In this document: positions 19,234-61,245 of the stretch, piece after piece | Layout of the letters: each line of letters starts with the position of its first letter | Position numbering within the stretch: the stretch's first letter is position 1 | NCBI GenBank assembly: GCA_958295775.1 | Contig: CATQHC010000009.1 | Coordinates: 124,001-188,000 of the forward strand | Direction: 5' to 3' | DNA length: 64,000 bases | Origin: Chloroflexota bacterium | GTDB lineage: Bacteria; Chloroflexota; UBA11872; VXOZ01 | Notes under the pieces: model-generated | What the model was told of the DNA's origin: nothing | The model's database searches: none | What the model saw: only the letters and a program-made list of their open reading frames with translations | Program-made: the position numbers and the translations under genes

Positions 19234-20231
19234 TCTTCCTTTTCCGGTGAAATTGTCATGACTAGCTCATCAATTACCGTATCGGCAGTGACACCTTCCG
19301 CCTCGGCCTCGAAATTCAAGATGAGCCTGTGGCGCAACGTTTGGTGGGCAACTTCACGAATGTCATCGAAGGAGACGTTATAGCGTTCGTCGAACAGAGC
19401 GCGAACCTTACCGGCCAACACCAGAGTCTGCGCGCCGCGGGGCGAGGCGCCGTACCTGACGTAGTTGCGCGTAATCTGCGGGGCCTCTGCCGATTCCGGA
19501 TCCGTAGCCGTAATTAAACGCACCGCGTAGCGCAGGACGTGGGTACCAATGGGCACCTGCCGTACCAGCACCTGCAGGGCCAGGATGTCCTTCGTCGTTG
19601 CCACTTTACGCACTTCCGGCACCACGTCGGTTGTCGTGCGCAAGACTATTTCTTCCAATTCCTCAGCGTCAGGATAGTCGACGATTATCTTGAAGAAGAA
19701 CCGGTCAAGCTGCGCCTCCGGCAAGGGATACGTGCCCTCCATTTCGATGGGGTTCTGCGTAGCCATCACGAAGAAGGGGATCGGCAAGTTGTGAAGGGAG
19801 TTTCCCACCGTGACGGTTCGCTCATGCATTGCCTCCAGCAATGCCGATTGCGTCTTGGGCGTGGCGCGGTTGATCTCATCGGCCAAGATCAGATTGTTGA
19901 AGATCGGCCCCGGCTCAAACCGAAAGAAGCGGTTGTCCTGCTGGTCCTCCGCTATGACGGTAGTGCCGGTAATGTCCGCCGGCATGAGGTCGGGCGTAAA
20001 CTGAATGCGGCCGTAGCGCAAATCGAGCACCTCGCCAAGCGTCTTGACAAGCTCGGTCTTGCCCAGACCGGGCACGCCTTCGAGCAGGGCGTGGCCACCG
20101 GCAAGGAGACAGATCATGACGTTGTCAACCACGGCCTGTTGGCCTACGATTACTTTTCCCAACTCGGCGCGAATGTCCTTGGTGAGTGCATGGAAGTCTT
20201 CGATTCGCTCTTCAGTTGGCCGTGAGATCAT
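19230..20231 (-). CDS. MoxR family AAA+ ATPase
   Basis: A 333-residue AAA+ ATPase: Walker A GVPGLGKTEL (about 57-66), Walker B LILADEINRATPKTQSALLEAM, sensor 1 ATQNPIEMEGTYPLPEAQLDRF and an arginine-rich C-terminal lid. MoxR proteins act as chaperones that insert metals or assemble complexes together with vWA-domain partners (methanol dehydrogenase, nitric oxide reductase and others). Here the candidate partners are the DUF58 and vWA proteins encoded immediately downstream. Overlaps both neighbours by 4 bp. Confidence 0.93.
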   Translation of the reverse strand: MISRPTEERIEDFHALTKDIRAELGKVIVGQQAVVDNVMICLLAGGHALLEGVPGLGKTELVKTLGEVLDLRYGRIQFTPDLMPADITGTTVIAEDQQDNRFFRFEPGPIFNNLILADEINRATPKTQSALLEAMHERTVTVGNSLHNLPIPFFVMATQNPIEMEGTYPLPEAQLDRFFFKIIVDYPDAEELEEIVLRTTTDVVPEVRKVATTKDILALQVLVRQVPIGTHVLRYAVRLITATDPESAEAPQITRNYVRYGASPRGAQTLVLAGKVRALFDERYNVSFDDIREVAHQTLRHRLILNFEAEAEGVTADTVIDELVMTISPEKEE

Positions 20232-21949
20232 TGTGACTGCTCCAGCGCATTCGATAAGGCATTAAAGTATTGTTGGACATAGTCGGCTACCATCCACGGC
20301 ACAAAGTGACTCGCGCCGCCGGTGGAGACAATGGCGTTGCCCGCGTCGGTAACCCCGTACTGGGCGGGGGCCGAACCTGGCCCGGGCACAGCCACCGGCG
20401 CACGTTGCGGCGACCAGAGCGATGGGCCGATCCCCCTATCCGCCAAGACTACCGATGGCTTCTGTTGGATTTGCAGGCGGGGCGCTTCCGGTCCCGGATT
20501 GAAGGATTCTTCGCCACGGTTGCCGCCACCTTGGCTTGGCCCCCCCGGCGCAGACTGCAGTTGCCATGAATCTTGCTGCTGCGCCTGCCCCGGCTGTTCT
20601 GCCACGCCGGATGTGTTGAACGCTTGTTGTGCCTGGCTTCCCCGCTGTTGTGCATCGCTCTGCTGCGCCCCAGACTCCTCGCCGCTCGCGCCGGCCCGCA
20701 ACTGTTCAGCCTGCTGCTCCAACTGTTGCTGCGCCTGGATCCGCTGTCCGCGCTCCTGAATGGCGTCGCTAAGTTCCTGCAATTCACGCTCCGTCGCGGG
20801 GTCGTTGTACGACGCGACTTCCCTGCTCACGTCCGCTAGCTCCTGGGCCAGGCGTGGATCGGCCTGTTGCGCGCGTTCGGCCGCTTTGGCAAACGCGTCG
20901 GTCATGTCATTGCGGTCTTCACGCGATAGGTCTCGCACTTGTCGCGCCAACTCTTCGAGCGCTTGCGCCGCCTGCTCGTAGTTGCCGCGTTCCAAGTCCT
21001 GGCCGGCTTGGCGTGAGGGCCGGGCCTGTGTGAGCTCTCGACCTATCTCGGCGAGAGACGTGGCTTGCTGATCGATCTGGGGATTGCGACTTTCCTGAAG
21101 CTGTTGCGCAAGGTCGGTGAGGTCTGATCCACCTTCCTTGTTCTCCCCCGCCTCTCCCTCCTCTGCGGCCTGAGCCTGCTGGGAGGCATTCTGTTGCTGA
21201 TTCAGTTCAGCCTGCGTGAGTAACGGCTGGTTCTGGCCCTGCTGGGCACCTTCCTGCGCCGCAACCGGTTCCGCAAGGTCCTTTGCCGCCACGGGGGTAT
21301 CGGAATCTTCGCCGACCACGAACGCATCCGGTGAAGTCTGTTCGATGAGCGTGCCTTCACGCACTGCCGCCACCTGGTGCGCCAAAGGCGCGAGCGGTGC
21401 GAGCTGACCGGCCATATACGGAAACACCTCCCAGAGAAGGAGCGCCACCAATGCCAATGCCAGGAGGAGCACGTCTCGCTGCGGAATCCTGAGAGGGAAT
21501 ACCTGTCTCGGTTGGATCTCCGCCGCGTGACGGCTGGCATCGTCAAGGAGCAAAGGGCGAAACGGATTTTCATCAGAACGCCCCAGCAGTTCAACCGCCG
21601 TGGCAAGGCGTTCGGAGAGCGACAGACGCTCATCGTAGGCCTTGGCGACGTCGAGCGTGTTGAGCCGACGCATCACCGCAGGGACGACCAAAGCGAGGAA
21701 TACGCCGATTGCTAGGAAAAAGCAGATGGCGAAGACGGGCAACTGCGGCACAAGCAGCGACCCGATAAGCGAGAGACCCACGTAGAGCAGAGCCGCTACC
21801 CACAAGGCCCGGACTAGCCGCAATAGCACCGCCAACACCCGCAAGCGCCGGCCAAATTGCGAAATCCGGTTGACGTAGCTCGCCGCCGAGGCAACTCCCT
21901 TCCCAGAGAATTCAGCAGTTGCTGAAGCTGTCTTCGACGAGGTCGCCAC
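20228..21949 (-). CDS. Membrane protein with long Gln/Ala-rich coiled coil (DUF4175-like)
   Basis: First gene of the MoxR operon. Two N-terminal membrane helices (about 35-85, VALLYVGLSLIG and FAICFFLAIGVFLALVV), a third at ALALVALLLWEVFPYM, then an outward or periplasmic region rich in Gln, Ala and Glu with heptad-like patterns (about 215-430: TLAQQLQES, LEELARQVRDLSRED, QAQQQLEQQAEQLRAG). The arrangement recalls DUF4175 proteins, which sit beside MoxR genes. The C-terminus ends in a hydrophobic-aromatic segment (HFVPWMVADYVQQYFNAL). Start: GTG at 21949 with AAGGAAG about 11 nt upstream; a TTG at 21973 would add 8 residues. The stop overlaps the MoxR start by 4 bp. Function unknown. Confidence 0.75.
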   Translation of the reverse strand: MATSSKTASATAEFSGKGVASAASYVNRISQFGRRLRVLAVLLRLVRALWVAALLYVGLSLIGSLLVPQLPVFAICFFLAIGVFLALVVPAVMRRLNTLDVAKAYDERLSLSERLATAVELLGRSDENPFRPLLLDDASRHAAEIQPRQVFPLRIPQRDVLLLALALVALLLWEVFPYMAGQLAPLAPLAHQVAAVREGTLIEQTSPDAFVVGEDSDTPVAAKDLAEPVAAQEGAQQGQNQPLLTQAELNQQQNASQQAQAAEEGEAGENKEGGSDLTDLAQQLQESRNPQIDQQATSLAEIGRELTQARPSRQAGQDLERGNYEQAAQALEELARQVRDLSREDRNDMTDAFAKAAERAQQADPRLAQELADVSREVASYNDPATERELQELSDAIQERGQRIQAQQQLEQQAEQLRAGASGEESGAQQSDAQQRGSQAQQAFNTSGVAEQPGQAQQQDSWQLQSAPGGPSQGGGNRGEESFNPGPEAPRLQIQQKPSVVLADRGIGPSLWSPQRAPVAVPGPGSAPAQYGVTDAGNAIVSTGGASHFVPWMVADYVQQYFNALSNALEQSQ

Positions 21950-22149
21950 GTTGATTGCTGCTTCCTTTGGCAAGCGACCGCAATTGAGTTACAGTCGTCT
22001 GCGTCCTCAAGAAAAGTGTGGCTGCACCAGCGGCTTACGCTCGGCGCACCACATTCGCAAGCGCGCAATGCGCCCCGCACAACAAGAACAGCGCAGAGTT
22101 GCAGCCTGCCCCGGCCTGCTCTGCTTACTGACTCAATCTTACCTGAGAA

Positions 22150-39311: not shown

Positions 39312-40169
39312 TCAGTCCCCTGCCGTAGCCACCGTACCGGCAGCGGCAGCATGATACGGCAGAGCGCTCTCGCCGGCAGCGGCTGCCAGGGCATTCCAAG
39401 CGCGGAAGAGCTGGGCGTACATGAGGAAGTAATCCTCATGCGTTGGCTCCGTCTTACCTATTTCGGATGAGAGATAGCCGTCGTAGCCGTCGCGTTGGAG
39501 CAGGCCGAAGAGCTCAGCGTAGGGAAAGCCATTGACGAAGTCGTGCATGTGCACGTGGCCGATCAGGTGCGCGACGCGGTTATACGTTGAGGCCACCGAA
39601 CCGCCGACGAGATCGCGGTTATCGCAATTGTAGAGAATCCCCACCTGCGGGTGGTCGGCATGCTCAACTGCGGTCATGGCGAAGTGCCAGTAATTGAACT
39701 GACCGTGCATTTCCAGCATCACGTTGACACCGTGAGGCTCGGCAAATTCCCCTAACTCCCTGAGCGAGTCACCCACATAGCGCATTACATCTTCACGCGG
39801 CGGGGGCGCACCCCCATCCACACCTTCTTTGGGCATATCATTGCCAAAGACCCGAATCTGGCCGGCATTCACGTCCGCCGCGAGCTCGATGAAGCGTTTG
39901 CTGCGCTCAACAACCTCGCGGCGCTTGGTGGCATCCGGTGATTCAAAGCGAGAACTGGTGCTGATTCCGGCAACTTCCAAGCACGCGTCCTGCACTTGAT
40001 AGCGAATCGACAGGCGCTCCTCAGCGCTCGTTTCCAATTCCACGCCGTGCTTGTGGCCGGCTTCAGCCCTGAACTCCAGACCGCTAAAGCCGCCAAGACG
40101 TGCCAAGTCAAGGAGTTCCTGCAGTTCCCAGTGCCGCGCCATGTTGTAGGTCAATAGACAAAGTTTCAT
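39312..40169 (-). CDS. Sugar-phosphate isomerase/epimerase-like TIM barrel
   Basis: 285 residues of the xylose-isomerase-like (AP endonuclease 2) fold. It starts KLCLLTYNMARHWELQELLDLARLGGFSGLEFRAEAGHKHGVE; acidic/His metal positions appear in VMLEMHGQFN, HADHPQVGILYNCDN, HLIGHVHMHDF and LSSEIGK. Such enzymes isomerise keto-sugars or inositol derivatives. The ATG has GGGAG upstream and a good promoter at 40208-40236. It heads the presumed operon with the phosphodiesterase. Confidence 0.85.
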   Translation of the reverse strand: MKLCLLTYNMARHWELQELLDLARLGGFSGLEFRAEAGHKHGVELETSAEERLSIRYQVQDACLEVAGISTSSRFESPDATKRREVVERSKRFIELAADVNAGQIRVFGNDMPKEGVDGGAPPPREDVMRYVGDSLRELGEFAEPHGVNVMLEMHGQFNYWHFAMTAVEHADHPQVGILYNCDNRDLVGGSVASTYNRVAHLIGHVHMHDFVNGFPYAELFGLLQRDGYDGYLSSEIGKTEPTHEDYFLMYAQLFRAWNALAAAAGESALPYHAAAAGTVATAGD

Positions 40170-45049: not shown

Positions 45050-45916
45050 ATGTACGAAAAGATTAGCGGCTTTTGCGATGAGATTACGGACGACTTCAGC
45101 GAACAGCTAGACGCCATGCAGGCTCTCGGCATCAACTATGTGGAGGTACGCAATCTCGCCGTTAACGGCAAACCCAAGGCCGTGATTGTCGACCTCACCG
45201 AGGATGACCTCCGCGCGGCAAAGCGCGAATTGGACAGTCGCGGCATGCGCGTCTCGGCCATCGGTTCGCCAATTGGCAAGATCATGATTACTGATGACTT
45301 TGAATCGCACCTTGAGAGATTCAAGGGCGCGCTCCGTGCCGCCGACATCCTGGATACTTCCTACATCCGCATGTTCTCATTCTTCCTGCCGGAGGGCGAG
45401 GACCCAAACAGCCATCGAGACGAGGTAATGCGCCGCCTGCAAGCCCTATCCGCTGCGGCGAGGCAGCACCGGCCGGACATCCTGCTGTTGCACGAAAACG
45501 AGAGCGACATTTACGGTGACACGCCCGCTCGCTGCAGGGATATCTTTGAAACGGTTGGCGCAGAGAACCTGCGCCTGACCCTTGATCCCGCAAACTTCGT
45601 CGCTTGTGGTGTCAAGCCATTCAGCGAAGCGCTACCCGCGCTGCAACCCTGGCTCCACTATGTGCACGTGAAAGACAAGGAATCCCAAGCCGGCAAGGTG
45701 GTTGTTGCCGGTGAAGGCGCTGCCGAATGGCGCGAACTCCTGGGAGCGCTCAAACTTGCGGGGTACGACGGATTCTTCTCGCTTGAGCCGCACCTGCAAG
45801 TCGCCGGCCGTTCCTTTGGCTATACCGGGCACGACCTCTTTGCCAAGGCCCATGCAGGCTTCATGAATCTGCTGAACGAGACAGGCTGGCAGTCCGCCAC
45901 CACGAGCGCTCCTTAG
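45050..45916 (+). CDS. Sugar-phosphate isomerase/epimerase-like TIM barrel
   Basis: 288 residues, xylose-isomerase-like fold: FCDEITDDFSEQLDAMQALGINYVEVRNL at the N-terminus, then acidic/His positions in LLLHENESDIYGDTP, LTLDPANFVACG, YVHVKDKE and FFSLEPHL. AAGGAG precedes the ATG. It is not closely like the barrel at 39312, so the two likely have different substrates. Its last 56 bp overlap the 3' end of the convergent glycosyltransferase gene. Confidence 0.87.
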   Translation: MYEKISGFCDEITDDFSEQLDAMQALGINYVEVRNLAVNGKPKAVIVDLTEDDLRAAKRELDSRGMRVSAIGSPIGKIMITDDFESHLERFKGALRAADILDTSYIRMFSFFLPEGEDPNSHRDEVMRRLQALSAAARQHRPDILLLHENESDIYGDTPARCRDIFETVGAENLRLTLDPANFVACGVKPFSEALPALQPWLHYVHVKDKESQAGKVVVAGEGAAEWRELLGALKLAGYDGFFSLEPHLQVAGRSFGYTGHDLFAKAHAGFMNLLNETGWQSATTSAP

Positions 45917-50323: not shown

Positions 50324-50423
50324 GGAGGCGCTCGGGTCCCGGTGGGCCTCGCGGTCTTCAAAACCGTCTGCGGGGCGGGCTACTCCCGTCCTGGGTGGGT
50401 TCGACTCCCATGCGCCTCCGCCA
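50324..50423 (+). tRNA. selC: Selenocysteine tRNA (anticodon TCA)
   Basis: An 8-bp acceptor (GGAGGCGC 50324-50331 with GCGCCTCC 50412-50419), discriminator G and encoded CCA (50421-50423). The D arm has a 6-bp stem (GGGTCC/GGGCCT) with a 4-nt loop, the anticodon loop is CTTCAAA with TCA at 50358-50360, and there is a long GC-rich variable arm before a T arm GTGGG-TTCGACT-CCCAT. The 8-bp acceptor, long D stem and long extra arm are peculiar to bacterial tRNA-Sec and exclude a serine or suppressor tRNA. selA, selB and selD and a selenoprotein should exist elsewhere in the genome. Confidence 0.95.
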
Positions 50424-50621: not shown

Positions 50622-51428
50622 TTATTTGAACGCTTGGCGCAAGTGCTCTTGGTTCAGCCGTGCAATTTCCGCGGTGGGGAGTTCCGACTTTGGATCGGAG
50701 TCTGACCATTCGTGGAGGACCCAGTGGGAATATCCATTTGCGCGGAGCACAGAGAAGACTTCAGCGAGCGCCACATCACCCTCTCCCAGCACCTCCACAC
50801 ACGTTGCGTTCCCTACGGTGTCGCGAATGTGCACCATGCGCAGTCGTGGGTAGAACTCCCGCAATACCGCGATACCGTCGGCGCCGCCCCACACCGCCCA
50901 GTTGAAGTCCAAACACAAGCCAAGCGCATCTGCGCTGATTCCGGCCATTATTCCACGAAACACCTGGGCACCATGTGCAAACTCATGCTGATGATTGTGC
51001 AACAGCGGCATTACACCTTCTGCGGCAGTGAAGGCGCATAGCTCCGTGAGGTGCGTTACTTGCAAGTCGATCTCTGCCTGTGTCAGCGGGCCGTTCTGTT
51101 TTCTTCCCGTGCTGATCACGAGATACTCAGCTCCCACTGCGCCGGCGAATTCCGCCGCGGCGCGCGCCTGCGGCATGGACTTCTCCCGGACCGCAACCGG
51201 ATCATGCCAAGCGCCGCCCACGTGAATTCCTGCCGTCTCCAGCCCATTCCCGTATACTGCCCTGCGATGCGCGGCAACATCATTGGGGTCGTTCACGTAG
51301 GCATAGCCGATTTCCAAACCGTCATACCCCGCTGCTGCCAAGTCCCTGCCGATCGTGGGCAAGACACCGCCAAGGTCCTGCGTTTCTCTCAGCCACAGGC
51401 GAGCCTGACAACCGATCTTTGGCGCCAT
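50622..51428 (-). CDS. Sugar-phosphate isomerase/epimerase-like TIM barrel
   Basis: 268 residues starting at the ATG with AGGAG 10 nt before it (MAPKIGCQARLW). Fold markers: YDGLEIGYAYVND, TAGIHVGGAWHD, VMPLLHNHQHEFAHG, LCLDFNWAVWGGADG and MVHIRDTVGN, LHEWSDSDP, giving the usual Glu/Asp/His metal set. Typical of inosose dehydratase / epimerase families. It starts divergently from the small membrane protein gene downstream. Substrate unknown. Confidence 0.87.
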   Translation of the reverse strand: MAPKIGCQARLWLRETQDLGGVLPTIGRDLAAAGYDGLEIGYAYVNDPNDVAAHRRAVYGNGLETAGIHVGGAWHDPVAVREKSMPQARAAAEFAGAVGAEYLVISTGRKQNGPLTQAEIDLQVTHLTELCAFTAAEGVMPLLHNHQHEFAHGAQVFRGIMAGISADALGLCLDFNWAVWGGADGIAVLREFYPRLRMVHIRDTVGNATCVEVLGEGDVALAEVFSVLRANGYSHWVLHEWSDSDPKSELPTAEIARLNQEHLRQAFK

Positions 51429-51630
51429 GATTTGCGTGCTCCTAAACACTGGGTGTGCGTCGATGTGAATCTGAGCAATAGGGAATCTCGTCGAACCAGG
51501 AAAGTAACCAGGAATGCTCACGCTTGAATTTCAGGCAAATGCCTGGGATGCGTTCTGCGCGAGATTGGTGTACTATGTGACTACTTCCGCGTTTACCAGA
51601 GGGATTTGCATTCTTCGGAGGATCGTGCAG

Positions 51631-51788: not shown

Positions 51789-52244
51789 TTACTCGACCTC
51801 GATCGAGACACGTTGGCCGGCATCTTCATTTGCCAAACCGTGTTCAAGCGTCACCCACGGCAGGAGCGCGCATTTAACTCGTAGAGGAAAGTTGGCAACT
51901 CCCTTAAGGGATTCAAGATCTTCCAACTCTTCGGGTAGCGCTACGTCCTCCCCATGCATCATGGCCTTGAACTGGTCGCTTATTTGACGTACTTCCTCTC
52001 GCGACTTTCCCTGCAGCACCTCAGTCATCATCGATGCCGCCGCGAGACTGATCGCGCAGCCGGAACCATCGAAGTGCACCTCTTTAAGGCACTCTCCATC
52101 TAGCGCTACGTAAACCTCAACATCGTCTCCGCACAGCGGATTGCTACCCTCGGCTTCAATGTCGGCATGCGGCGGCCTGCCTCGATTGTGCGGACTCTCG
52201 TAGTGATCGAGAATGATTTCCTTATAGAGATCGTTCAACTGCAT
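51789..52244 (-). CDS. sufU: Iron-sulfur/sulfur-transfer protein SufU
   Basis: Zinc-dependent sulfurtransferase partner of SufS, 151 residues. Cys ligands in NPLCGDD, GSGCAISLAAASMM and RVKCALLPW, plus Asp, as in Bacillus SufU; the insert typical of SufU between the second and third Cys is present. It begins within the 3' end of sufS (23-bp overlap). Last gene of the Suf operon. Confidence 0.94.
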   Translation of the reverse strand: MQLNDLYKEIILDHYESPHNRGRPPHADIEAEGSNPLCGDDVEVYVALDGECLKEVHFDGSGCAISLAAASMMTEVLQGKSREEVRQISDQFKAMMHGEDVALPEELEDLESLKGVANFPLRVKCALLPWVTLEHGLANEDAGQRVSIEVE

Positions 52245-53475
52245 GTCCGAAAATCCTCTGCGCCTTGTGTAACCCTTGAACCAGCGCGTCTACCTCTTGC
52301 TCGGTGGTGTACACATAGAAGCTCGCGCGCGCCGTGGCAGGTACGTTGAATCTGCGCATAAGCGGCTGGCAGCAGTGATGTCCCGCGCGCACGGCAACGG
52401 CTTCACTGTCCAGAATCTGCGCGATGTCGTGTGGATGCACGCCGTCCAATACAAAGGAGATGACGCCGGCGCGGGTCTGCAATTCCCAGGGGCCAAAGAG
52501 CTTTATTCCGGAGACTTCACGCAACTTGTCAAGCGCATACTGGGTAATCTGTAATTCGTGCTCACGCACACTCTCCATGCCAAGTTCAGACAAGTAGTCA
52601 ACAGCCGCACCCAATGCAATCACATCGGCAATATTCGGCGTGCCTGCTTCAAATTTCTGCGGTACGTCCGCCCAAGTAGATTCGGTGAGCATGACTTTGC
52701 GAATCATACTGCCGCCGCCCATAAAGGGACGCATAGACTTCAGCAAGTGAGGCTTCGCATAGAGCACACCCACACCGGTCGGCCCCATCATCTTGTGGCC
52801 CGAGAAGGCTAGAAAATCGCAGTCGATGTCCTGCACATCCACCGGCATGTGGGGCACGCTCTGAGCCGCGTCGAGCAGTACCAACGCTCCGTACTTGTGG
52901 GCTTTCTTGACAATGCCCTTCACCGGATTGACAGTGCCAAGTACATTTGATACATGGGTAACCGCAATCAGCCGTGTCTTTTCAGTAATGAGGACGTCGA
53001 AGCCGTCCAGCATGAGACGACCTTCATTGTTCACGCGCAGGAAACGGAGGTCGGCTCCCTGCTCTTGCGCCAGCAATTGCCAGGGAACAAGATTCGAATG
53101 ATGCTCCATCTCTGAGATGAGGATCTCATCATCGGCGCCGACATTGTCGCTGCCCCACGCGTACCGCACGAGATTGATGGCTTCGGTGGTATTGCGGACA
53201 AAGATTATGCACTCCGGCGACGGAGCATTGATGAAGCGGGCGACCTTAGCTCGCGCCTCTTCGTACGCCGCGGTAGCCTGTTCGCTTATCGTGTAGATGC
53301 CACGATGAACATTGGCGTTATACCGCGTGTAGAAGTGCACCAGGCTGTCAATGACCGCCTGCGGTTTCTGTGAAGTCGCTGCGTTATCCAAATACACGAG
53401 CGGTTTGCCGTGTACTTGCGTCCCCAATATGGGGAAGTCTTGCCGCACAGCGTGCACATCAAAGTTGACTTCCAT
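52222..53475 (-). CDS. sufS: Cysteine desulfurase SufS
   Basis: PLP enzyme of 417 residues that releases sulfur from cysteine to SufU. Markers: YLDNAATSQKPQAVIDSL, SEMEHHSNLVPWQ, DAAQSVPHMPVDV, FSGHKMMGPTGVGVLY with the PLP Lys, and the catalytic-loop Cys in VRAGHHCCQPLM. Overlaps sufU. Confidence 0.95.
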   Translation of the reverse strand: MEVNFDVHAVRQDFPILGTQVHGKPLVYLDNAATSQKPQAVIDSLVHFYTRYNANVHRGIYTISEQATAAYEEARAKVARFINAPSPECIIFVRNTTEAINLVRYAWGSDNVGADDEILISEMEHHSNLVPWQLLAQEQGADLRFLRVNNEGRLMLDGFDVLITEKTRLIAVTHVSNVLGTVNPVKGIVKKAHKYGALVLLDAAQSVPHMPVDVQDIDCDFLAFSGHKMMGPTGVGVLYAKPHLLKSMRPFMGGGSMIRKVMLTESTWADVPQKFEAGTPNIADVIALGAAVDYLSELGMESVREHELQITQYALDKLREVSGIKLFGPWELQTRAGVISFVLDGVHPHDIAQILDSEAVAVRAGHHCCQPLMRRFNVPATARASFYVYTTEQEVDALVQGLHKAQRIFGHAVERSL

Positions 53476-53521
53476 CGTGCACAGTCCTATCTAGCGAAGG
53501 GATGCCGGTCTGCCGCGCGAA

Positions 53522-53833
53522 TCACTCCAGATCCACAAACACATCCTGGCCCTCGATCTTTACATCGTAAGCATTAACCGGCACCACCGCGGGAAAGGTG
53601 ATGGCGCGCCCCGTGCAGACATCAAAACGAGCGCCGTGCCGGGGGCATTCCAGCGTCGTACCGTCTAGTTCGCCTTCACCCAGTGGTCCTCCGTCATGGG
53701 TGCAAATATTGTCTATGCAGTATACGGCGCCTGCGACACGCGCCAATGCGAAGCTTTCGCCCTCAATATCAACGACAATAGCCCGCCCCTCCGGAATATC
53801 GTCCACCGACGCTGCTCTCACATAGTTTGCCAT
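53522..53833 (-). CDS. Rieske [2Fe-2S] ferredoxin-like protein
   Basis: 103 residues with the Rieske ligands CTH (NICTHDGGPLGEG) and CPRH (LECPRHGARFDV). Related to NirD and dioxygenase ferredoxins. Its place between sufD and sufS, 3 nt after sufD, suggests it supplies electrons to cluster assembly; similar insertions are known in Suf operons of Gram-positive and related bacteria. Confidence 0.9.
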   Translation of the reverse strand: MANYVRAASVDDIPEGRAIVVDIEGESFALARVAGAVYCIDNICTHDGGPLGEGELDGTTLECPRHGARFDVCTGRAITFPAVVPVNAYDVKIEGQDVFVDLE

Positions 53834-53836
53834 GCG

Positions 53837-55201
53837 TCAATCCTCTACCTGCCATCCGGTCATTTTCTCTTGGATCTTGCCGGCAAGCTGGGCCTGCACG
53901 CCGGCTACCGACGTGTGTTCGATAACCTCCGTAAAGAAACCCTCCACCAACATGCGCGCAGCTTCATCCCTATCCAACCCGCGCGTCATAACGTAGAAGA
54001 GTTCCTCCGGGTCCACTTGTCCGGTGGCCGATCCGTGGGTGCAGCGCACGTCATCGTTGTCAATTTCCAGAATAGGAATTGAGTCGGAGCGAGCACGCTT
54101 GCTCAGGAGTAAGTTGCGGTTCTCTTGATACGCATCCGTGCGCTTCGAACCCTTGCGGACACCGATCACGCCGGTAAAGACAGCACGGGAACGGTCCCGC
54201 AGCGCGCCCTTGATCAACAAGTCGCTCGTGCTGTAAGGAGCACGGTGATCTTGCATAGTCTTATAGTCCATATGCTGTGTGCCATCAGTAAAGAAGAACC
54301 CTCGATGAAAGGACTCCACTCCTGAGCCTGCAAAGCTATTGTCAACGTAATTCTTGACAAGCCGGCCGCCTGTGGCCGCTAAGATTGTATGCAGATTGCC
54401 GTCATTGTCTACGCGGAGTCGTTGAAAACCCAACTCAAACACGTGCCGGCCCCAGTCTTGGAGCGTGACGTGCCGTACGTGGGCGCCATCCTTAACAACT
54501 ACCTCAGTAGCCGGGCAGGAAAACGACTGCTCTGCGAGCGATGGGCTTGCGTAGCGTTCTACAAACGTCACCTGACTTCCCCGGTCTGCCACAAGCAGGA
54601 CGTGAGGAAAGACCGCAATGTTCTCAGCATTCATCCAGGCAACGAACTGAATTGGGAGCGCAACCTCAGTATCCGGCGGCACGTAACAGAAGATTCCGCC
54701 TGAGAAAAAAGCACCGTGCAACGCGGGGAATTTGCCGTCGGCCGGAGTCACCACCCGCCCAAGGTGTGGTTGTACCAATTCGGGGTGCGTGCGGGCGGCC
54801 TCAGCGAGCGGCGCCAGGACCACGCCCTGCTCCTGCAGGGATGCATCAAGCGTCGTAAACGCTACTTCCGAATTAATCTGTACCGCCAAACCGCCCCAGG
54901 CATCGCCGGTATCGATATGCGGATGGATTGCTTCCGGCAAGTCCGCCGCAGCCTTCGCTTCAATGCCGGCGGGCATGTACAGCAGCAGCTCGTCCAGCTC
55001 TAGTTCACGATAGTCGGTGCGCCGCCAATCCTCATCTCTCAGCGTGGGCATTGGCGATTCTTCATACGCCTCCCAAGCCTCCTGACGCAGATTCCGCACC
55101 CAATCCGGCTCACCGCAAGCTCGTGACACTTCTTGCCAGGCTGCGGCTGTTATTCCTTGCAGGGCCGTCAACGGCTTTTGTTCAACTGACGATTGGCTCA
55201 C
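53837..55201 (-). CDS. sufD: Fe-S assembly protein SufD
   Basis: 454 residues, scaffold partner of SufB. C-terminal family block: FTGVIGVRKGSKRTDAYQENRNLLLSKRARSDSIPILEI and CTHGSATGQVDPEELFYVMTRGL, with parallel beta-helix core. The gene follows sufB after a 175-nt gap that holds a hairpin. Confidence 0.94.
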   Translation of the reverse strand: MSQSSVEQKPLTALQGITAAAWQEVSRACGEPDWVRNLRQEAWEAYEESPMPTLRDEDWRRTDYRELELDELLLYMPAGIEAKAAADLPEAIHPHIDTGDAWGGLAVQINSEVAFTTLDASLQEQGVVLAPLAEAARTHPELVQPHLGRVVTPADGKFPALHGAFFSGGIFCYVPPDTEVALPIQFVAWMNAENIAVFPHVLLVADRGSQVTFVERYASPSLAEQSFSCPATEVVVKDGAHVRHVTLQDWGRHVFELGFQRLRVDNDGNLHTILAATGGRLVKNYVDNSFAGSGVESFHRGFFFTDGTQHMDYKTMQDHRAPYSTSDLLIKGALRDRSRAVFTGVIGVRKGSKRTDAYQENRNLLLSKRARSDSIPILEIDNDDVRCTHGSATGQVDPEELFYVMTRGLDRDEAARMLVEGFFTEVIEHTSVAGVQAQLAGKIQEKMTGWQVED

Positions 55202-55283
55202 GCTTCTCTTTCCTGATGTATTTCGTGCTTGAAAGCGATTCTATAAACCCATAATTGCTCTGATTGACCGTTTTACAGCAATT

Positions 55284-55328
55284 GCGCCAGACAGGAGGCA
55301 CATTTCGTCATGCTTCCTTGTCTGGCGC
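55284..55328 (-). promoter_or_regulatory. Intercistronic hairpin between sufB and sufD
   Basis: GCGCCAGACA (55284-55295 region) pairs with TGTCTGGCGC (55319-55328), the stem continuing imperfectly to a loop. On the transcribed strand it is followed by AATTGCTGTAAAA, not by a T-run, so it is more likely an mRNA-stability or processing element than a terminator. Confidence 0.5.
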
Positions 55329-55376
55329 TGCGCGCCTCAATTCAAACCGGAAATGCCCGGTCAGGATGCGCTCCGC

Positions 55377-56792
55377 TTAACCGACTGCCTTATCCATCTG
55401 TAGCTGGATAAGACGGTTCATTTCCACGGCATACTCCATCGGCAATTCTTTGACAATTGGCTCGATGAAGCCGCTCACAATCATGCCAGCCGCCTCGGAT
55501 TCGCCCAGCCCGCGGCTCATGAGGTAAAAGAGTTGGTCTTCGCCAATCCTGCTTACCACGGCCTCGTGGCCCAGACTCACCTGCTCTTCTTCAATTTCGA
55601 TGGTTGGATAGGTATCGGACCGAGATGCTTCATCCAAAATGAGCGCATCGCAACGCATGGCCGACTTCGACTTCTCCGCGCCCTTGTAAATCTTGAGCAG
55701 ACCTCTAAATGAGGTGCGCCCGCCGTGCTGGCTGATCGACTTGGAGATGATCTTGGATGAAGTATTAGGCGCCACGTGGATCGCCTTGCCACCCGCATCC
55801 AGCACCTGGCCGTCACCGGCATACGCTATCGAGAGAATGTCGCCCTTGGCCCCCGGCTCCATCAGATAGACGCTGGGATACTTCATCGTGATGTTGGAAC
55901 CAAGGTTTGCGTCCACCCACTCCATCACGCCCCCGGCATAGACTGCGGAGCGCTGCGTCACCAGGTTGTACACGTTGGTCGACCAATTCTGGATGGTGGT
56001 ATAGCGACAGCGGGCGTTCTTCTTGACGATGATCTCAATCACGCCGCTATGGAATGAGTCGGTTGAGTAAACCGGCGCCGTGCAGCCCTCGACGTAATGC
56101 ACGTACGCGCCTTCATCCACGATGATGAGCGTGCGTTCAAACTGCCCCATCTGTTCCGCATTGATGCGGAAATATGCTTGAAGCGGAATAGTCACCTGCA
56201 CACCCGGAGGCACGTATACGAAAGAACCGCCGCTCCAGAATGCGCCGTTCATCGCGGCGAACTTGTTATCCGCCGACGGAATGACCGTTCCAAAATACTG
56301 CCGAAAGAGCTCAGGGTGCTGCTCCAGACCTTCCTCCGTGCTGAGAAAGATGACACCCTTGGCTTCAAGGTCCTTCTGAATGGAATGGTAGACGACTTCA
56401 GATTCGTATTGCGCGGAGACTCCCGCCAGAAACTTGCGCTCCGCCTCTGGGATGCCAAGCTTATCGAAGGTGTCTTTGATGTACTCAGGCACGTCCTCCC
56501 AGGTAGTGCCCTGCTTTTCAGTAGTGCGCACGAAGTATGAGAGATCGTCAAACGGAATCTTGGAGAGATCCGCGCCCCACTTGGGCATCGGCTTCTTATT
56601 GAATATCTCCAGAGACTTGAGCCGGAATTCGAGCATCCACTCCGGCTCATTCTTCATCTGAGAGATCTCGATCACGCGATCGGGATCAAGTCCCTTAGGC
56701 GCCTTGTAGATCGCCTGATCGGGATCCGCAAAGCCATACTTCTCTTTATATACTCGCTTACTTTCTTGAATATCCTGCTCGGTAACCGCCAT
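55377..56792 (-). CDS. sufB: Fe-S assembly protein SufB
   Basis: 471 residues, main Fe-S scaffold of the SufBCD complex. Blocks: [57 protein letters not shown] and [19 protein letters not shown], all highly conserved in SufB. The Cys of NARCRYTT is the usual scaffold Cys. 43 nt behind sufC. Confidence 0.96.
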
Positions 56793-56835
56793 CTCAGCAC
56801 CTGCCTCTCTAAGCTTCCTGCGTCCGTGACGAAGT

Positions 56836-57609
56836 CTACGTTTCTGACGAAGCCACCATCACCTCGTCCAAGAGCACATCGTATCCCTTGGCCTCAAGCT
56901 CCTCAGCCAGCTCAAAGCCACCCGACTGCCGTATCTTACCATCCACCATGATGTGCACGTAGTCGGGCTTTACGAAGTGCAGAATGCGTGGGTAGTGCGT
57001 AATAATCACAATTGACATCTCAGGATGCATGATCGATGAGATGCCCTCGCCGACTGCGCGAATGGCATCGATGTCCAGGCCGGAGTCAATCTCATCCAAT
57101 ACGGCTAGTTTCGGCTCGAGCACGGCCATCTGCAAGATTTCCATCCGTTTTTTCTCGCCGCCGGAAAAGCCGTCGTTTAAGTAGCGCCCTGCAAATTCAC
57201 GGCCAATCTTAAGCATGTCCATCTTCTCAAGCAGATGCTTGCGAAACTCTCGCGCGCTGATTTCCTTCTGCTTGACCGCTTTGAGCGACGTGCGCAGGAA
57301 GTTCAGAGTGCTCACCCCAGGAATGGCGAGCGGATACTGAAAAGCGAGGAAAATGCCGAGTTTGGCGCGGTCATTTGGCTCTCTCTCCAAAATGTCCTCG
57401 CCGTCGAAGAGCACCTGCCCTGCGGTTGCCTCATAGCTAGGGTGGCCCATCAGTGTATGGGCGAGGGTGCTCTTGCCGGAGCCGTTCGGCCCCATAATCG
57501 CGTGGATTTCGCCGCGCTTTACGGAGAGGTCTACGCCCCGTAGGATCTCGTTCTCTTCAATCTCGACGTGGAGATCCTCAATATGAAAAAACGGTTGCTC
57601 AGTAGCCAT
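56836..57609 (-). CDS. sufC: Fe-S assembly ATPase SufC
   Basis: 257-residue ABC ATPase: Walker [18 protein letters not shown], the SufC-typical [11 protein letters not shown], signature [15 protein letters not shown] and Walker [13 protein letters not shown]. Drives conformational change of SufBD. Confidence 0.96.
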
Positions 57610-58551: not shown

Positions 58552-61245
58552 ATGTTTAGTCGTCGTCTTCTCCAGCTACCACTTGAGAAAGGTTGGCTCC
58601 GGCACGGGCTTCCCTTTGGATTGCTCTTGCTCGTCCAAATAGCCCTCGCGCTCTTTCGTGAGCTGCCGTTGGCAGTGTCAGATGAGACAGTCTATCTTGC
58701 GAATGCACGTTTTCTGTCCGGCACGGCGCCAATGCCCACTCTGCATGAGTCATACTTCTTTCACTTCGGTTACTCTCTCTTTCTTGTCCCAGTATTCTGG
58801 CTCTTCAAAAACCCCAGTGACGTTTACACCGCGAGCCTAGTCGTCAGCGCGCTCCTCATGAGCACGCTTTATTTAAGCCTCTATTTTGTATTGGCATCCT
58901 TGATCGGCATTAGTCCCCGCTTTGCGATGCTTGCCTCATTTATTACGTGCCTCTATCCACCACTGCTGCTGCGCGCGAACTTCGCCTGGGGTGAGAATGC
59001 GTACGTGCCGGGATTCGTGCTCACCGTAGCCCTCTTCGGCGTGCTCCTACGTCGGCAGTCTATGCGATACGCGGTCTTGTTCGGGCTTGTCCTCGGATGT
59101 ATGTACACTATTCACCCGCGCTCGTTGCCGCTCATTCCAATTGCCATGATATTCATGCTCTTTTGGGGGCGCAGCGGGATCTTGCGTTGGCGCGCCGTCA
59201 CTGTAGCCTTCACTGCCACCGTCGCGCTGTTTTTTGGCACACGTCAAATGCTCGACTACCTGAAGTCCATTAACCCCGGCGCTCTTGCCGAAGTGCAGAT
59301 TCGCCCCCTCATCGCACACTTAACGTCCCTGCAAGGTATCCATGACTTCCTGCTCGCCCTGAATAACCAACTGCTCTATCTCGTCCAGTCCTCGTTCGGC
59401 TTGTTTCTCATTGGCCTGTTTGCTATTGCGCTCTTCTATTGGCAGCGACGGCGCACCGGACTTTCCACTTTTGTCCAGGACGTACCCACTGCCACGCTGA
59501 CGTTCTTCTGCTTGGCATGGCTGGGGTCGCTTGCCCTCAGTTCAGCGTTCCTCAGTCTGCCGGAAGAGACCGGCAAACTGCTGAAGGGAAGGTATGTCGA
59601 TGGGAACTCTGCCCTCATATTCGCGTTCGGTCTCGCCACAATTCTATGTGGCAGGGTCAAGCTACTTGGAGGGTTTACACCCCCCTTCCGCCTTCGACAT
59701 TGGTCGTTTCGCGCGCAGGCGCTGGCCGTACTCGTGGTTGGCGCCAGCACAGCAGTCCTGATCTACAGTGTGTCTGTCTTTCTACCGGTGGTCGTTCCAA
59801 CGAACTCTCTTGGCATCTATCCAATTCTGGAGATTCTTGGCGCGACGAGAACTGCAATTCTTGGCACTTCCACGCTGGCGGCCGTAGGCTTTGTAGTTTT
59901 CTCTATTGCGCGAAGTCACTTTCGCTTTGCGGCCGTGGTCGCCATCGCCGGCCTCTTTCTTGTCACCAGCGCTTACGATTACCGCTTTGTCATTCTCCCG
60001 CTGCAGGAGCGCGTGGCGCGGTCGTCTAGTCTCGCGTCCTATATCCGCACATACTTCGGATCACCTGCGACCATTGCCTATGATGTTGCCAACGGCCATC
60101 CGGTGTCCTATTTTTCCTATGAATACCTGCTGCCGCATACGCGCTTTCTGCCATTCGACAGTGCCGCCGGCGAGAAGCCACCGGCGGCTATTGTGATTAG
60201 TAGCCGCAATTGGAATGAAGCCGAACTTCTGGGGGCGCAGTTCTGGCAAGCTGAGCCGCAAGTCCTGCTCGTAGGTGCGGACCAAGCACTCTGGACTTTG
60301 CCGGGGCCACAACAGTCAGCCCTCAGCCAGCAGACCGACTACACCAATACTGTTCTCGGTCTGTATGCGTTGCCCGCCTGGAGCGTTGAAGCAGCTCGAG
60401 GCATCCAGGTCCAGTCCATTTGGGGTGTGTGGCAAAGCGGTCTTTACCATCCGGTGACCAACGGTGAGAACAGCTCACTGGTCTGGTTCCATGACCACGC
60501 CAGCCTGCGCGCGCCCACAGGAGTGGATCCCCCGCAGTACGTGCTCTTGAACCTTCTCAGCACTGTTGCTCGCGCTACACCGCTGCATGTTGAAGCGAAC
60601 GGCGCGACCGTCTTTTCCGGCCCTGTGCCCCCGGGCAACTGGTGTCAATCATTCCCTTTACCGCACAATCCAGACGAACCAGGAACCACACTTGACCTCT
60701 TCCTGCCTTCATCCACTGGCACTGGGACTGCGTCACTGCCAGCAAACATGGTGGTACGAGGCATCACACTGCTCGATCACGACCCGGAATTACTTCAAGG
60801 CCTTACGCCTGACGCGCTGCCTGAAGGCGCCCATCGCTCCAATATCGCTCTTGAGTCGCAGCTCTATCCAAGGTCTCTCGCACAGGGCGTCATGGGTACA
60901 CTTGAAATTAACGTCAGGAACACCGGCGCTGAACCGTGGCCGACACAATGTGAAATCGGTCAAGTGCCGGGTTCAGTACAGCTCGGCATCCTGTGGTTTC
61001 CTAGTGGTTCTGCGGACCGAAGCCTCGTTGCACGCGCCGCCGAGGGGAGAGCGGCGCTGCCCTATGCGCTGGCGCCCGGCAACTCTCTGAGCCTCACTGC
61101 CATTCTCGCGCCCTTCACGCAGGGCGGCGTTCCGCTGCCTCCGGGAGACTATGAAGTCTGGATCGGGCCTGTCCAAGAGGGTGTTTCGTGGTTCTTTCAG
61201 AAGGGCGATGACGTACTAAAGGTACCCATTCGCATTGTTAGGTAG
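58552..61245 (+). CDS. Large membrane glycosyltransferase with C-terminal outer domain
   Basis: 897 residues. About 12-13 membrane helices in the first 480 residues; the first outer loop (PLAVSDETVYLANARFLSG) carries an acidic DE as in ArnT/PMT-like polyprenyl-sugar transferases. Residues about 490-897 are extracytoplasmic and beta-rich, with two sandwich-like parts (NARNTGAEPWPTQ-like strands near 790). Thus probably a GT-C enzyme that glycosylates surface material. Start ATG 58552; no strong ribosome site. It is divergent from the suf operon. Confidence 0.72.
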   Translation: MFSRRLLQLPLEKGWLRHGLPFGLLLLVQIALALFRELPLAVSDETVYLANARFLSGTAPMPTLHESYFFHFGYSLFLVPVFWLFKNPSDVYTASLVVSALLMSTLYLSLYFVLASLIGISPRFAMLASFITCLYPPLLLRANFAWGENAYVPGFVLTVALFGVLLRRQSMRYAVLFGLVLGCMYTIHPRSLPLIPIAMIFMLFWGRSGILRWRAVTVAFTATVALFFGTRQMLDYLKSINPGALAEVQIRPLIAHLTSLQGIHDFLLALNNQLLYLVQSSFGLFLIGLFAIALFYWQRRRTGLSTFVQDVPTATLTFFCLAWLGSLALSSAFLSLPEETGKLLKGRYVDGNSALIFAFGLATILCGRVKLLGGFTPPFRLRHWSFRAQALAVLVVGASTAVLIYSVSVFLPVVVPTNSLGIYPILEILGATRTAILGTSTLAAVGFVVFSIARSHFRFAAVVAIAGLFLVTSAYDYRFVILPLQERVARSSSLASYIRTYFGSPATIAYDVANGHPVSYFSYEYLLPHTRFLPFDSAAGEKPPAAIVISSRNWNEAELLGAQFWQAEPQVLLVGADQALWTLPGPQQSALSQQTDYTNTVLGLYALPAWSVEAARGIQVQSIWGVWQSGLYHPVTNGENSSLVWFHDHASLRAPTGVDPPQYVLLNLLSTVARATPLHVEANGATVFSGPVPPGNWCQSFPLPHNPDEPGTTLDLFLPSSTGTGTASLPANMVVRGITLLDHDPELLQGLTPDALPEGAHRSNIALESQLYPRSLAQGVMGTLEINVRNTGAEPWPTQCEIGQVPGSVQLGILWFPSGSADRSLVARAAEGRAALPYALAPGNSLSLTAILAPFTQGGVPLPPGDYEVWIGPVQEGVSWFFQKGDDVLKVPIRIVR

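Follow-up and report, generated by a model that had tools for sequence, protein, structure and literature searches.

The gene at positions 50324-50423 (plus strand) of the window, the whole 64 kb stretch of DNA analysed here (G000:C9:124001-188000), is a genuine bacterial selenocysteine tRNA gene, far above chance, and comparative sequence data make it almost certain that it is a functional selC serving the selenocysteine (Sec) decoding of UGA in selD and fdhA. It belongs to a metagenome-assembled genome (MAG) of 3.42 Mb in 9 contigs, 95% complete, in which at least two selenoprotein genes (selD and fdhA) are recognized. These data document Sec decoding in an uncultured class of Chloroflexota, most of whose genomes retain both the tRNA-Sec and a TGA-containing SelD, and bring no change to the view of the decoding mechanism itself.

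Identification and structure of selC

Bacterial tRNA-Sec is characterized by an 8/5 fold, a 6-bp D stem with a 4-nt loop, a UCA anticodon, a long variable arm, G73 and, usually, an encoded CCA, with lengths ranging from 90 to 101 nt (PMC5330540). Analysis of the whole window with ARAGORN returned a single tRNA, a tRNA-SeC with anticodon TCA at 50324-50423 (+). As a covariance test of this candidate we used the Rfam tRNA-Sec model (RF01852), which matched 50324-50419 (+) along its entire length (1-91 of 91) with 67.1 bits (E = 1.6e-11), exceeding the gathering score of 47 bits. Manual pairing and folding gave an 8/5 acceptor/T fold in which all 8 acceptor pairs are formed between the 5' strand GGAGGCGC (50324-50331) and the 3' strand GCGCCTCC (50412-50419). 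A TC linker separates the acceptor from the D arm (50334-50349), where manual pairing gave a 6-bp stem and a 4-nt loop, CGGT. The anticodon arm (50351-50367; ARAGORN and pairing) has a 5-bp stem and the loop CTTCAAA, with TCA at 50358-50360, and is followed by a long variable arm (50371-50393) that folds into a 9-bp stem with a 5-nt loop, and by the T arm (50395-50411), which pairs as a 5-bp stem GTGGG/CCCAT around the loop TTCGACT. The discriminator G73 and the encoded CCA are read directly at 50420-50423, all these elements being on the plus strand. The initial annotation had recognized the 8-bp acceptor, the 6-bp D stem with its 4-nt loop, the TCA, the long variable arm and the CCA, and had made its call dependent on the score reached with a tRNA-Sec model; every one of these features was recovered by ARAGORN, RF01852 or pairing, and the call stands. 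Including CCA the gene is 100 nt long, 2 bases more than in most of the sampled relatives of the class. It shares all the features described for RF01852 tRNA-Sec, with nothing beyond the described range, so the tRNA itself is ordinary and of a known kind.

The conservation of the gene points in the same direction. Five of the six genomes of the genus share its sequence unchanged through G73, with diverged flanks, and the encoded CCA is not universal, GCTG being present instead in G002; the tRNA-Sec was not found in the genus member G001, whose genome is 69% complete. At the class level, tRNA-Sec matches above threshold were obtained in 34 of 41 genomes, and the Sec trait is a normal, mostly retained character of the class.

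An anticodon UCA would read UGA in any case, and the gene could in principle encode an opal suppressor, or the tRNA of a genome-wide UGA reassignment, carrying another amino acid rather than Sec. We consider this highly improbable, since the 8/5 fold, the 6-bp D stem and the RF01852 score are peculiar to Sec tRNAs, selA, selB and selD are present in the genome, and TGA ends genes here. For instance, the SUF gene at 53837-55201 ends in a TGA where two relatives have TAA or TAG in the alignment, and therefore TGA is also used as an ordinary stop.

Dispersed Sec machinery in the genome

A search of the genome for the remaining Sec genes found selA, selB and selD, all of them above their curated cut-offs. 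selA lies at C9:219306 (571 bits; cut-off 268), outside the window by about 31 kb on its far side and 45 kb away from the tRNA, and selD at C9:447099 (377 bits; cut-off 125), 273 kb from the tRNA, whereas selB is on a different contig, at C2:1044162 (359 bits; cut-off 242). The initial annotation had seen none of these genes in the window, which is correct because all three map outside its coordinates, and had regarded the absence of selB or selD from the genome as evidence against Sec decoding; both are present. The set of selA, selB, selC and selD, together with Sec-containing SelD and FdhA, is the same as in the Sec-decoding trait described by Zhang et al. (2006, PMC1794560), but here the genes are dispersed and no selABC cluster is formed, and for this reason only selC is visible in the window. 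The lack of other Sec genes in this segment thus only reflects the window cut and is without biological meaning. Near selB we also observed a TPP riboswitch (L114 5280-5395, minus strand; 59.6 bits, gathering score 54.3).

The estimated contamination of the MAG, 2.3%, leaves some room for a foreign contig in the bin, or for a chance tRNA-like sequence, as the origin of the selC signal. Such an origin is very unlikely, since the same tRNA, accompanied by a second tRNA-like match about 20 kb apart, is found in four other assemblies, selA and selD share with selC one and the same contig of 967 kb, and SelA places among Chloroflexota in a maximum-likelihood tree.

From known biology, SerRS would first load the tRNA-Sec with serine, SelA would turn the product into Sec-tRNA with selenophosphate provided by SelD, and SelB would then bring the Sec-tRNA to those UGA codons that have a SECIS hairpin behind them; the UGA sites identified so far would be those of SelD itself and of the formate dehydrogenase catalytic chain. 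In addition, no match to MnmH/YbbB (TIGR03167) was obtained in the genome, and the selenouridine trait therefore appears to be absent.

Selenoproteins SelD and FdhA and their SECIS-like hairpins

Among bacterial selenoproteins, FdhA and SelD have the widest distribution (Zhang et al. 2006, PMC1794560). Each of the six genomes of the genus has a selD with one in-frame TGA at the position of the catalytic cysteine, within the motif LTSLAxCAGUAGK(LG). Of the 38 genomes of the class having a SelD match, 37 show a single in-frame TGA in it, the lone exception being a match that begins past the Sec site. Similarly, an FdhA-type formate dehydrogenase (624 bits) contains one in-frame TGA in DSCNRTUHAPSVVGL; this motif is readable in five genomes of the genus and the sixth has a contig-end fragment with the TGA, while in other families of the class the FdhA-type proteins are mostly without a stop. 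The idea that some apparent stops of this genome are not stops is borne out by these two genes, each with a single in-frame TGA at a known Sec position, and a standard annotation pipeline would truncate at least fdhA and selD at the UGA in this genus.

The region 3' of both TGAs is under constraint at synonymous sites. In codons 4-16 after the TGA, 11 of 12 synonymous positions are invariant in selD compared to 54 of 217 elsewhere (p = 5e-6), and 10 of 13 compared to 61 of 339 in fdhA (p = 1e-5), these p-values being somewhat generous because the codon range, chosen to match where bacterial SECIS elements are known to lie, was fixed after the sequences had been seen. When all 13-codon windows were scanned by conservation, the selD stretch ranked second of 234 and the fdhA stretch first of 297. 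In selD, the fold of every one of the six members contains a hairpin GCGCAG-GUx-CUGCGC with the GGU at 35 nt. The candidate hairpin of fdhA, GUCGUC-GGUCU-GGCGAC, was paired by eye, and the minimum-energy folds of 60 nt vary between members; its GGUCU loop begins at a distance of 21 nt, counted from the T of the TGA, and both this loop and its spacing to the TGA are the same as in E. coli fdhF, the sequence of which was confirmed. The hairpins are nearly invariant, so that constraint is visible and covariation is too low for an independent check of the pairing, and a search of the Sec loci with Rfam at a permissive threshold gave no SECIS match. The conserved GGU-loop hairpins are SECIS-like and appear as expected of bacterial SECIS elements.

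The presence of selA, selB and selD, the in-frame UGA conserved at a known Sec site in selD and fdhA and the constrained SECIS-like hairpin just downstream of it all agree with the proposal of the initial annotation that this organism decodes UGA as Sec. A different possibility, suggested by a 64 kb window lacking any other Sec gene, is that selC is a relic of a Sec trait since lost. This is extremely doubtful given the selA, selB and selD genes elsewhere in the genome, a tRNA unchanged within the genus between diverged flanks, and the TGAs kept in selD and fdhA, all of which argue for a selC in use.

The architecture of the Sec-FdhA is the only slightly unusual feature met. The catalytic chain matches only positions 51-672 of Fdh-alpha, and the 4Fe-4S domain (positions 1-50, PF04879) forms the C-terminal end of a NuoG-like subunit whose gene lies downstream. 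In this locus (C2:415228-410410, minus strand, within G000:C2:403001-422000) the catalytic chain is followed by a NuoE-NuoF fusion of 624 aa and then by the NuoG-like subunit ending in PF04879 (Molybdop_Fe4S4), in contrast to the FdhA of the described trait (PMC1794560), with its N-terminal 4Fe-4S domain. The split arrangement was found in five of the six members of the genus; in the sixth (69% complete) the detached domain was not found, and the catalytic chain starts at position 52. A catalytic chain that lost its 4Fe-4S domain, now carried by the NuoG-like subunit, might represent an undescribed form in this genus, a suggestion we regard as tentative and rather unlikely. Besides, in G032 and G036 (family f5) another molybdopterin oxidoreductase, distinct from this one, has a single in-frame TGA inside its match to Fdh-alpha positions 2-236, suggesting that another type of Sec formate dehydrogenase may be present in this family.

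Genes surrounding selC

Selenoprotein genes were also sought in the window, with TGA translated as a residue, against about 260 kb of sequence from four relatives of the genus, a comparison that covers only those parts of the window having a counterpart in a relative. No convincing selenoprotein gene was found in this comparable part, and among the TGA-readthrough candidates only shadow frames and gene ends were left in a second pass. Two long open frames, of 897 aa (58552-61245, plus strand) and 581 aa (20228-21973, minus strand), are without a Pfam match. Just downstream of the tRNA there is a group of SUF-type iron-sulfur cluster assembly genes (51789-57609, minus strand), which, from reading their sequences, we take to encode an ABC ATPase, two SufB/SufD-like proteins, a SufS-like desulfurase and a SufU-like scaffold. 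Lastly, the window contains three xylose isomerase-like TIM barrels (PF01261), at 39312-40169 (minus strand), 45050-45916 (plus strand) and 50622-51521 (minus strand).
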